Positions 6,355 through 9,864 of a stretch of DNA of 29,154 nt are shown here, in pieces. The stretch comes from a virus. Every line of letters begins with the position of its first letter. The first letter of the stretch is position 1. Under the pieces are notes generated by a model. It had not been told where the DNA came from, did not search any database, and worked only from the letters and a program-made list of their open reading frames with translations. The position numbers and the translations under genes are program-made. The stretch covers positions 1 to 29,154 of the IMG/VR virus record IMGVR_UViG_3300034072_000768; one strand, given 5' to 3'.

Positions 6355-7103
6355 AAACCTGCCTCCATTTTTGCGGTGATGTATTCCTTGACAAGTCCAG
6401 AGCGAACAATATCTTCTATACCAAATTCAATTATATCAAAGGAAGGCATTTTACGCAAGACTGACATAAAATCTACAATACCATTTCTTTCATTTGTCTT
6501 TTGTAAATCAGACTGAGTGGCATCACCACAAAACATAATCTTAGTATTTTCACCAACGCGGGTGATAATAGAATCTAATTCATGGAAGTTTAGATTCTGA
6601 AACTCATCGACAATAATAATAGCGTTATCAAGAGTTGTACCACGAAGGAATGAAGTAGACCAAAACTTGATTGTTTCTTGTGACTTTAGATTTCCATAAA
6701 GCATTTCAAAATCAGCATCAGAAGGCATCTGGAACATATACTTTACCATATTCTTATAAGGAATTTGGTAAATGTCTGCCTTATCATCGTGACTTCCAGG
6801 CAAGAATCCAATTTCACGAGTAGCAACTAGTGAGCGGACAATATAAACTCTTTCGTATGGACTTCTTTCATTCAATACATCTTGAATAGCATTATAAAGT
6901 GTGATAAACGTTTTACCAGTTCCAGCGCATCCATAGGCAACCAAGTGCTTTTGCTCTTTATAAGATTCAAATAACTTTCTTTGGTTGTCTGTAAGAGGTT
7001 CAATATCTACAAGATATTCAGAACTCAGTGGTTTTTTGCGCTTCATTTGACGAGTAGTAAGACCAACCCCGATTGGTTGCTCTGCTCTTTTTCTTCTTGC
7101 CAT
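6351..7103 (-). CDS. phoH: PhoH-like ATPase
   Basis: 250 residues. Walker A GCAGTGKT at about 58-65, Walker B IIIVDEFQN at about 162-170, and a later sensor-like KIMFCGDATQSDLQ define a PhoH-type P-loop ATPase related to superfamily 1 helicases. The first 35 residues are basic (RRKRAEQ, RQMKRKK). phoH is a very common cyanophage gene; in bacteria it belongs to the phosphate regulon, but its role in phage infection is unresolved and an RNA/DNA helicase or nuclease-partner role is possible. It starts 6 bases after the upstream 82-residue gene and overlaps the nuclease gene. Confidence 0.93.
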   Translation of the reverse strand: MARRKRAEQPIGVGLTTRQMKRKKPLSSEYLVDIEPLTDNQRKLFESYKEQKHLVAYGCAGTGKTFITLYNAIQDVLNERSPYERVYIVRSLVATREIGFLPGSHDDKADIYQIPYKNMVKYMFQMPSDADFEMLYGNLKSQETIKFWSTSFLRGTTLDNAIIIVDEFQNLNFHELDSIITRVGENTKIMFCGDATQSDLQKTNERNGIVDFMSVLRKMPSFDIIEFGIEDIVRSGLVKEYITAKMEAGF

Positions 7104-9250: not shown

Positions 9251-9279
9251 ATTTTAGCATAAAAAAAGGAGGGAATCAA
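9251..9279 (-). promoter_or_regulatory. Early-type promoter built on a terminator
   Basis: Minus-strand TTGATT (9274-9279) and TAAAAT (9251-9256) with 17 bases between. The -35 is the loop of the terminator hairpin and the spacer is its 3' arm plus T-run. It would start the operon of two small genes and thyX. Confidence 0.6.
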
Positions 9280-9289
9280 TCCCTCCTTT
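9265..9289 (-). terminator. Terminator of the small-peptide cassette
   Basis: Perfect 10-bp stem AAAGGAGGGA (9265-9274)/TCCCTCCTTT (9280-9289) with a 5-base loop. On the minus strand the stem runs into a run of seven T, and on the plus strand it is followed by GAA and a long T-run, so it may work both ways. It stands 11 bases past the stop of the 27-residue peptide. Confidence 0.85.
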
Positions 9290-9299
9290 GAATTTTTTT

Positions 9300-9383
9300 T
9301 TACTTAGACAACCACTGAATATACAATGAAAGTAAAGTAATAAATGCGACAGACGCAACTGAAATTTGTGCGATGATTAGCAT
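9300..9383 (-). CDS. 27-residue single-membrane-helix peptide
   Basis: Reads MLIIAQISVASVAFITLLSL then YIQWLSK, a single hydrophobic helix with a basic end. Its ATG shares one base with the previous stop (TGATG), so it is translated together with the basic peptide. It is the last gene before the terminator. The size resembles small photosystem or cytochrome subunits and phage membrane micropeptides, but no family is recognised. Confidence 0.6.
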   Translation of the reverse strand: MLIIAQISVASVAFITLLSLYIQWLSK

Positions 9384-9478
9384 CACTTTGCTCCTGCGTT
9401 TGCTAGCAGTGCTTGGTGACGACGTTGCTCTTTTTGCTTTTGCTCTTTAATGAGTTGAAGCACATTGAGTTTTTTCAT
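9383..9478 (-). CDS. 31-residue basic, glutamine-rich peptide
   Basis: Reads MKKLNVLQLIKEQKQKEQRR then HQALLANAGAK: five Gln and nine Lys/Arg, predicted helical. Its start overlaps the upstream stop by one base (TGATG arrangement), and it follows the 45-residue peptide behind the riboswitch-like leader. Small basic peptides (IF7/IF17) inhibit glutamine synthetase in cyanobacteria; no sequence match to them is claimed. Confidence 0.6.
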   Translation of the reverse strand: MKKLNVLQLIKEQKQKEQRRHQALLANAGAK

Positions 9479-9615
9479 CACTTATGACCCTCCTTTACAA
9501 ACTTAACACCACGATAGGTTTCGTTGTATTGTTGGGGTTGTTGCATCATTTGCTGTTGATACTCAAGACGCTTTTGAGTATCATACTCTACGCCTCTGTA
9601 TACGACTTTAGACAT
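9478..9615 (-). CDS. DUF4278-like 45-residue peptide
   Basis: The frame starts at the ATG at 9613-9615, with a strong AAGGAG ribosome binding site 7 bases upstream. Two YRG boxes, VVYRGVEYDT and ETYRGVKF, bracket a Gln-rich middle (QQQMMQQPQQ); eight of 45 residues are Gln. YRG-x-x-Y boxes are typical of DUF4278, a short family of cyanobacteria and cyanophages of unknown function. It is the first gene behind the glutamine-riboswitch-like leader, as expected for the 'downstream peptide' class. Confidence 0.72.
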   Translation of the reverse strand: MSKVVYRGVEYDTQKRLEYQQQMMQQPQQYNETYRGVKFVKEGHK

Positions 9616-9647
9616 TAGGTTTTCTCCTTAGTTTTTAAGTTAAAGAG

Positions 9648-9748
9648 CGTTCCTTCAGTCGGCGTTTGCGTCCGCTATTTGAGAATAGCGAATGAACGTT
9701 CCGTTCCGCGTCGGCTTACTTCCGTCTGGTTTTCCAGATGAACGTAAG
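9648..9748 (-). ncRNA. Glutamine-riboswitch-like leader (glnA / downstream-peptide type)
   Basis: On the minus strand the leader begins CTTACGTTCATC, then a 5-bp hairpin (9725-9738, AAAA loop), then GACGGAAGTAAGCC. These are core pieces of the glnA/downstream-peptide (glutamine) riboswitches: CGUUCA, P2, GACGGAAGUA. A second CGTTCA (9693-9698), 7-bp hairpin (9673-9690) and CTGAAGGAACGC (end 9648) follow; GAAGGAACGC is the usual 3' end of the motif. It is either two tandem aptamers (9702-9744 and 9648-9698) or one aptamer with a long side arm. The second copy lacks GGAAGUA. The start site predicted from the promoter is at the first base of the motif. Recalled consensus, not a covariance search. 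Confidence 0.65.
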
Positions 9749-9751
9749 GTC

Positions 9752-9780
9752 ATTATAGACCCTTTCATCGTATATATCAA
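9752..9780 (-). promoter_or_regulatory. Consensus early promoter of the riboswitch cassette
   Basis: Minus-strand TTGATA (9775-9780), 17-base spacer, TATAAT (9752-9757): the best sigma70-type promoter in the window. Transcription would begin near 9745, at the very start of the riboswitch-like RNA. Confidence 0.85.
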
Positions 9781-9805: not shown

Positions 9806-9835
9806 TTTTTAAAAATCTTAATAGTCAAAAAAATT

Positions 9836-9854
9836 GCCGGGATTTTTTCCCAGC
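9836..9854 (-). terminator. Intrinsic terminator after the 117-residue gene
   Basis: On the minus strand a 7-bp stem GCTGGGA/TCCCGGC (one G-T pair) with an A-rich loop is followed by AATTTTTTT, 10 bases past the stop at 9865. It ends the upstream gene group and insulates the early promoter behind it. Confidence 0.8.
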
Positions 9855-9864
9855 ATTTTTGAAA

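Follow-up and report, generated by a model that had tools for sequence, protein, structure and literature searches.

A probable nested pair of glutamine aptamers with exchanged partners in the leader RNA of a cyanophage gene unit

The leader RNA of a small minus-strand gene unit in a viral genome is, by its sequence, of the glutamine-riboswitch kind, with glutamine as its putative ligand. We conclude, with a probability of roughly 80%, that it is built as a nested pair of glutamine aptamers whose halves have exchanged partners. In this arrangement the 5' half of copy 1 and the 3' half of copy 2 would form an outer, class-I-like aptamer composed of P1 (9744-9740 with 9652-9648), P2a, CGGAAGUA and the GAAG ahead of the P1 3' strand. 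The 3' half of copy 1 and the 5' half of copy 2 would form an inner hairpin, and the helix P3 (9716-9709 with 9664-9657) would be common to the outer aptamer and a second, circularly permuted core. On comparison of relatives, P2a, P2b and the long-range P3 are shown to form; the outer and inner P1 partners we infer. E-loop, as well as J2/3 and J3/1 as subdivisions of class I, are part of the general vocabulary of these aptamers and are used throughout.

The window, that is the whole stretch of DNA analysed, is a virus record of 29,154 bases. The phage origin stated in the first-pass annotation is correct. Of 92 matching phage records, 88 are from Synechococcus or Prochlorococcus phages or cyanophages and four are labelled 'Marine virus'. 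The nearest named relative is Synechococcus phage S-SRM01, with 78.4% identity over 26% of the window's first 25 kb. The minus-strand unit is self-contained and comprises a terminator-like hairpin, a promoter-like site, the leader, three tiny ORFs (9615-9300) and another terminator-like hairpin; the ThyX gene (8893-8141) comes after it. Its features, with the basis for each in brackets, are the following.

9835-9855, minus strand: intrinsic-terminator-like hairpin upstream of the unit (8 pairs and a T tail; consensus match only).
9752-9780, minus strand: sigma70-type promoter-like site TTGATA-17-TATAAT, with TTGATA at 9780-9775 and TATAAT at 9757-9752 (11 of 12 consensus bases).
9648-9744, minus strand: the whole probable nested double-aptamer element (94.3 bits with model R1, which was trained on a set including this sequence; covariation in relatives).
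9740-9744, minus strand: outer P1 5' strand CGUUC, which would pair with 9648-9652 (invariant in set A1, defined below; partner chosen from P3 and the RNAalifold consensus).
9725-9738, minus strand: P2a hairpin UCUGG-AAAA-CCAGA, which encloses ORF1 in many sister phages (two of three counted pairs change on both sides).
9717-9724, minus strand: outer J2/3 CGGAAGUA (sequence, Rfam scan).
9709-9716, minus strand: P3 5' strand AGCCGACG, pairing with 9657-9664 with two C.A mismatches (covariation).
9694-9707, minus strand: putative inner permuted P1 hairpin GGAACG-GAA-CGUUC (loop length and sequence vary in relatives; motif exact in 235 of 240 protein-selected loci).
9671-9692, minus strand: P2b hairpin, which encloses ORF2 in many sister phages (sequence, covariation).
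9665-9671, minus strand: inner J2/3 ACGCAAA (sequence).
9657-9664, minus strand: P3 3' strand CGCCGACU (covariation).
9648-9656, minus strand: outer J3/1 and P1 3' strand GAAGGAACG (sequence, Rfam scan).
9624-9647, minus strand: Shine-Dalgarno (SD) hairpin CUCUUUA / UAAGGAG, the putative expression platform (predicted by folding).
9478-9615, minus strand: 45-aa DUF4278-like gene, MSKVVYRGVEYDT...TYRGVKF... (Pfam PF14105 19.1 bits; phrog_5049 E 1e-10).
9383-9478, minus strand: 31-aa ORF MKKLNVLQLIKEQKQKEQRRHQ..., whose start overlaps the stop of the 45-aa gene (no family match).
9300-9383, minus strand: 27-aa hydrophobic ORF MLIIAQISVASVAFITLLSLYIQWLSK (no family match).
9265-9289, minus strand: terminator-like hairpin closing the unit (10 pairs, T run).

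The early-type promoter that had been proposed is indeed present at 9780-9752. It scores best of the five promoter-like sites found in 751 bases, where shuffles give a mean of 1.9 (sd 1.5), and the leader would be expected to start near 9744-9746. No terminator-like hairpin was found between the nested element and the DUF4278-like gene. The 45-aa product matches DUF4278 with 19.1 bits and E 0.0017, under the Pfam gathering score of 25.3, and is therefore called DUF4278-like only; searches of Pfam and PHROGs returned no family for the 31-aa and 27-aa ORFs. These mini-ORFs (9478-9300), the first charged and the second hydrophobic, are coupled end-to-start behind the DUF4278-like gene, and the 31-aa ORF is recognisable in relatives of the window.

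Read on the minus strand from 9744, the leader carries CGTTCA (9744-9739), the hairpin TCTGG-AAAA-CCAGA, ACGGAAGTA (9725-9717) and GGAACG (9707-9702), followed by a further CGTTCA (9698-9693), a hairpin, ACGCAA (9671-9666) and GAAGGAACGC (9656-9647). The glutamine-riboswitch pieces listed in the first-pass annotation were thus all located, and its remark that the second copy lacks GGAAGTA agrees with the sequence. The overlap it described between two GGAACG frames amounts to one base, 9702, which belongs both to 9707-9702 and to 9702-9697 because a GAA triloop sits there. The second of these frames was considered as the true P1 strand of copy 1 and rejected, most relatives having other loops at this place. 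Of its two proposals, a tandem pair or a single aptamer with a long side arm, each was half right. The pieces follow one another as they would in a tandem, but the halves appear to have swapped partners.

A search with Rfam, which had been suggested as a check, gave a divided answer. At the gathering threshold the full window returned 0 matches, but the first half alone (9693-9746), in an 81-base scan, matched the glnA motif RF01739 with 38.8 bits against a gathering score of 35 (E 9e-8). A search of RF01739 over the whole record likewise placed the first half above the cut-off (E 7.6e-9); in the control for that search, seven of 14 genomes had a match at E <= 1 and one was over the cut-off. 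The second half alone reached 29.1 bits, under 35, and in a 301-base scan the two matches, 29.1 bits (9700-9644) and 26.3 bits (9744-9702), were both under it. The whole-window and 301-base scans apparently miss the motif because the overlapping halves compete, and with standard cmscan annotation such overlapping copies seem to mask one another, the 81-base stretch alone giving its 38.8 bits. The absence of an Rfam match at the gathering score, named in the first-pass annotation as refuting its view, holds for the plain full-window scan but not for the first half by itself. The type 2 model, RF01704, gave 13.0 and 15.6 bits in the window and 24.6 in S-PM2, short of its gathering score of 33. 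Compared with the RF01739 consensus, the outer aptamer has P1, P2, GGAAGUA and GAAGGAACGC in order; the short closed P3 hairpin is missing, P3 being long-range and enclosing the second core. The leader folds with an energy z of -3.19, and one of 200 shuffles was equally low.

Relatives were sought by motif and by protein. A viral scan for GACGGAAGTA-N-GAACGTTCA returned at least 115 stretches. Apart from the window, 113 viral loci show this frame (116 entries, less the window itself and two copies of it), and 112 of 118 matches have a span of the same length, 34 bases, counting the window and its two copies as well as the chance matches L078 and L095. The order C1-P2a-G-K-C2-P2b-g-E-SD is strict in the relatives, and the loop between GGAACG and CGTTCA reads GAA, GAT, GATC, TTGT, AAGT, TGGC, GGTT, GAAT or CATTAT among the matches listed. 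Four incomplete loci were dropped, and the parse left out elements with GAA before the middle GGAACG. Set A1 comprises 97 of the 98 distinct natural ORF-free elements, L189 being omitted for its unusually long P2b and the element common to L112 and the window being entered as the window. Since the motif-found relatives were picked by exact motif, invariance in A1 is partly imposed. The protein-selected control set consists of 240 viral loci picked by similarity of an embedded protein, the best 80 each of 366, 111 and 247 relatives; many are near-identical or lie on the same contig. All nine isolate records opened (S-CREM1, S-SRM01, DSL-LC02, P-HM1, P-SSM4, S-PM2, P-SSM7, S-TIM4 and P-RSM6) have the nested element, these nine being a non-random pick from 66 BLAST-matched records and 13 matched by the ORF2-type protein.

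Outside phages, the scan of at least 120 bacterial contig entries with R1 gave, at 25 bits or more, only L360 (37.8 bits) and L435 (34.3 and 25.0 bits), both plain tandems; matches under 25 bits (L366 with 24.9, L397, L377 and L452) were left out. Of 386 genomes of the cyanobacterial phylum searched with strict filters, 15 match, with a best score of 39.2 bits, and 12 of the 17 matches span 49-59 nt. The 12 matches that were read contain no nested core and are all single class-I aptamers. In each of these 12 loci a P3 hairpin (for example AGAAG...CTTCT) stands between GUA and GAAGG, the same place as the nested P3.

The case for the nested fold starts from P3. Throughout the nested class, the stretch that follows the outer J2/3 (AGCCGACG in the window) is paired to the one lying ahead of GAAGG (CGCCGACT). 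The 98 distinct elements display 30 P3 strand combinations, and the helix is kept in most of them, with mismatches; examples are AGCCGAC[G/T/A] with [C/A/T]GCCGACT, AGTCG/CGACT, AGTCA/TGACT, GGACGG/CCGCCC and AAACGAC/GTTGTTT. S-TIM4 has AUUCG/CGAAU. On A1 the nested structure collects 153 double-changed cells against 38.6 in shuffles (0 of 500 as high), 56 of them in P3 and the rest in the P2s. Sliding the partner by one column lowers pairing from 93.5% to 56.3% or 26.1%. P3 cells are 79.3% paired, and in its commonest form the helix retains two C.A mismatches. The innermost P3 pair is GC in 33, UA in 26 and AU in 15 of the 97 elements of A1, with one other and 22 gaps; in 297 elements it is UA (164), GC (97), AU (28), UG (6) or other (2), hence standard in 295. 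On a tree of the downstream DNA the type of this pair changes 57 times (5' base 52, 3' base 56; with labels shuffled, a mean of 112.8 and a minimum of 100), a count inflated by recombination of whole elements, and the background AGTTGAC occurs with all three innermost pair types. An earlier candidate, in which a G/T change of the first half paired with just two bases of the other half, gave way to the complete P3 helix when more relatives were compared. Among the relatives, the P3 strands that occur most often are near-identical (AGCCGACT/AGCCGACT) and pair almost as a palindrome, the two C.A mismatches lying symmetrically, so that pairing between two RNA molecules would also be possible.

The P1 strands are invariant in A1 under nested and tandem structures alike, and covariation can therefore not choose their partners. 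The nested choice was made because of P3, the RNAalifold consensus, in which the nested P1 pairing came up without prompting (P3 is absent from it), and the positions of the E-loop halves. The tandem structure is 100% paired on A1 and has 97 double-changed cells against 23.8 in shuffles (0 of 500 as high), the P2s being part of both structures. Folding of the window gives -38.5 kcal/mol when free, -29.5 under tandem constraints and -27.6 under nested constraints; in the unconstrained fold neither the outer P1 nor P3 forms. The nested fold being energetically dearer, a contribution from the ligand or from tertiary energy must be assumed.

The inner core runs in the order P1 3' strand, capping loop, P1 5' strand, P2 and ACGCAA, with P3 as its open end. 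The P1 strands are thus reversed and loop-joined, as in a circular permutation, by a loop of 3-44 nt, and the E-loop letters of class I are missing. The inner loop has 3-5 nt in most loci, 20-21 nt with a stem of its own in 15 of 80 ORF2 loci, and 44 nt in L659 and four alike. GGAACG and CGTTCA are exact in 235 of the 240 protein-selected loci (158 distinct sequences with flanks, 50 distinct cores); of the remaining five, four run off the end of their contig and L701 no longer has the region. In L267, at about 6564-6767, ORF1 is flanked on both sides by an inner core in the parse, which hints at a three-module chain.

Whether the inner core is a second site bears on the strongest competing view, that only the outer aptamer functions and that GGAACG-CGUUCA-P2b-ACGCAA is a non-binding cap or relic. 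The inner part does lack both E-loop halves of class I and for this reason may be non-binding, and P3 of the nested outer fold requires only a cap. A cap should covary, however, and the inner GGAACG/CGUUCA stays exact at 235 of 240 loci beside P2b, P3 and a loop that vary; moreover, ACGCAA resembles the class-II consensus letters GgCGCAgUU. We consider the cap or relic unlikely, and the invariance of the inner core beside freely covarying P2 and P3 suggests a putative binding core and not a mere cap. A dynamic switch between tandem and nested pairings, one of them selected by glutamine, would agree with the identical P1 strands and with the closeness of the constrained folding energies; the tandem form would nevertheless lack a P3, and we regard this switch as improbable.

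A true tandem of two independently folding class-I aptamers, as in many glutamine leaders, has precedents in 157 published doublets (PMC9481103, accessible text) and in viral contigs such as L130, L185 and L208, where GAAGGAACG is followed after 6-11 nt by CGTTCA and a complete second GACGGAAGTAGG...GAAGGAACGC; it also fits the linear order, the tandem-type register (9693-9746) that exceeds the RF01739 cut-off with 38.8 bits, and a constrained fold 1.9 kcal/mol better than the nested one, but we judge it very improbable for the window. Neither half has a P3 hairpin or both core halves of its own, there being no GAA directly before 9707 and no GUA after 9666, and the sole covarying long helix joins the two halves. 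The GGAACG behind the 38.8 bits also crosses a variable loop, which is GAA in only 23 of 230 counted protein-selected loci, so that this GGAACG is missing in S-CREM1 (GAT) and in most of them. The tandem P1s C1:9706-9702 and C2:E were rejected because the helix that covaries spans a long range and no P3 hairpin is present in either half, P1 covariation being unable to decide. The true tandem class-I aptamers of L130, L172, L185, L194, L205 and similar viral contigs have a different SD region and are often linked by CATTATCAT or a near variant.

In sister phages the hairpins of the nested pair hold protein genes. Among 239 parsed elements, which include the window and near-identical contigs and count L267 (at least) twice, both P2s are short in 130, only P2b is long in 44, only P2a in 38 and both in 19; eight are incomplete. 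Every distinct long P2 contains an ORF whose ATG lies 3-7 bases after CGTTCA, at or just past the P2 5' strand. The embedded genes encode about 50-73 aa, and the window has neither ORF1 nor ORF2. As to their stops, of 43 distinct P2a proteins, 19 end in the aptamer at ACGCAAGTAA and 24 upstream of the core, and 36 of 39 P2b ORFs end at a stop overlapping GAAGG, as in GAC GCA AAA GCC GAC TGA. The P2 ends remain complementary, with a mean of 5.33 contiguous pairs for P2a (52 distinct strand pairs) and 5.76 for P2b (33) against 4.17 and 3.80 for shuffled partners (0 of 2000 each, in a test that ignores kinship); 10 of the 52 and four of the 33 have only three pairs.

In the protein-selected loci ORF2 lies in P2b with its ATG three bases after CGTTCA in 80 of 80 (best 80 kept). 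The 80 marine ORF1 loci have the full frame in 75 cases, are truncated in four and in one (L606) carry the ORF in P2b; the 80 freshwater ORF1 loci fit directly in 72, have a long inner loop in five, are truncated in two and have lost the 3' part in one (L701). With its marine ORF1-type gene placed in P2b and not in P2a, L606 looks as though P2 loops swapped gene cassettes. In L701 the outer CGTTCA is followed by both embedded-type ORFs in tandem, J2/3, the inner core and the aptamer 3' half are gone, and the proteins seem to be retained without the riboswitch.

The embedded genes bear the mark of coding sequence. Median dN/dS is 0.146 for ORF2, 0.176 for marine ORF1 and 0.226 for freshwater ORF1, calculated from the main length class only (36 of 46, 57 of 63 and 28 of 40 distinct CDS), with pooled pN/pS of 0.234, 0.241 and 0.466; the other two frames contain stops in all but one CDS. 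S-CREM1 and S-PM2 have no ORF in P2, and the embedded ORFs of the other seven isolates are annotated as hypothetical or unknown. The ORF1 and ORF2 families have two cysteines in common and are probably distant relatives (hhalign probability 82.8%). PHROGs places some embedded ORFs in function-less families (phrog_6471, phrog_504), and no Pfam match was obtained for 43 ORF1 members at E 0.01. An AlphaFold model of the ORF1 family has three helices (pLDDT 68.4, pTM 0.40), and its search against viral folds gave a best E of 0.2, nothing usable.

The following regulation can be proposed. A host-type promoter would make the leader RNA, both cores would bind L-glutamine with the two sites coupled through P3, and the leader would act through the SD hairpin (9647-9624) to control how the DUF4278-like gene and the two tiny genes that follow are translated. 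Judging from the type 1 and type 2 switches of cyanobacteria (PMC6316151, accessible text), ON with glutamine would be the most likely polarity, by a modest preference. When host glutamine is high, the unit would then yield a small protein similar to the N-terminal portion of IF17, the glutamine synthetase inactivating factor. Folding predicts the SD hairpin closed in the free, nested and tandem states (SD unpaired 0.00, 0.03 and 0.13); constraint folding of the window gave no SD-hairpin switching in any state, hence no switching mechanism was derived.

In the sister phages a closed P2 would mask the AUG of the embedded genes, and the polarity might therefore, as a speculation, be the opposite one. 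Only tentatively do we combine these elements into a fuller account, a partner-swapped dimer within one chain, with two glutamine sites of which one is permuted and which are coupled by the shared helix, and with the AUG of the P2 genes masked by glutamine. The embedded products would then be controlled with a sign opposite to that of the downstream gene, and, the stop codons of many embedded genes falling in the aptamer core, core and protein C-terminus would be written in the same letters.

If correct, exchanged halves and a permuted aptamer in a natural riboswitch would bring an architecture not seen before into a well-studied class, and the element would lend itself readily to testing whether coupling two sites through one helix steepens the response. 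Several hypothetical genes gain a context inside aptamer hairpins, namely PHM1_179/180 of P-HM1, 169.2/169.3 of P-SSM4, 205 of P-SSM7 and ORF_197/198 of S-TIM4. The element also suggests that cyanophages may read host glutamine and make DUF4278-like proteins, a kind that cyanobacteria use around glutamine synthetase control. Annotation rules that discard overlapping matches, or matches with an ORF between them, can overlook or misinterpret elements of this kind.

Glutamine riboswitches in cyanophages and marine phages are already published, according to the accessible parts of PMC9964418 (the S-CREM1 element), PMC9602691 and PMC9004378; the nested permuted form and the P2-embedded genes appear to be new, the openly licensed literature, matched mostly at title level, having yielded neither a nested or permuted glutamine riboswitch nor protein genes in the P2 of one. 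The S-CREM1 glnA element of PMC9964418 (Table 4: 164330-164232, 44.0 bits; whole 99 nt) is the same nested element, scoring 92.5 bits with R1, in whose training set S-CREM1 stands; the accessible text of that paper makes no mention of it as double or permuted. The nested element is like the type 1 switch (glnA motif, RF01739) in CGUUCA-P2-GACGGAAGUA, in GAAGGAACGC, in a P3 between GUA and GAAGG, in an SD hairpin behind P1 and in a DUF4278-type gene downstream, the usual partner of glutamine riboswitches (PMC6316151, accessible text). It departs from that type in having as P3 a long-range helix into a second permuted core instead of a small hairpin, and marine relatives differ further by ACGCAAGUA in the outer core. 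The letters CGUUCA, P2, CGCA and GGAACGG of the type 2 switch (Downstream-peptide, RF01704) resemble the inner and the marine outer core, but the scores with its model, 15.6 and 13.0 bits in the window and 24.6 in S-PM2, are all under 33.

Tandem glutamine riboswitches, of which the accessible text of PMC9481103 counts 157 doublets and 4 triplets, likewise have two aptamer-like cores per leader; each of those cores was counted as complete, whereas the nested element has swapped partners. That survey, as far as its accessible text goes, allowed no intervening ORF and set aside some overlapping hits as one switch, and some of its doublets may be misread nested elements. The M. tuberculosis metE B12 riboswitch contains a translated uORF within its aptamer (PMC11260477, accessible part); that uORF is short and affects metE, whereas the P2 loops of the sister phages carry conserved genes of about 50-73 aa. 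Natural circular permutations are listed for hammerhead, twister, 5S rRNA, group II introns, tmRNA and SRP, and the list, in the accessible portion of PMC10085705, names no riboswitch. The nested element would resemble these RNAs in that its strand order is permuted and the core kept, and it resembles protein domain swapping in that the halves of a tandem order would have exchanged partners.
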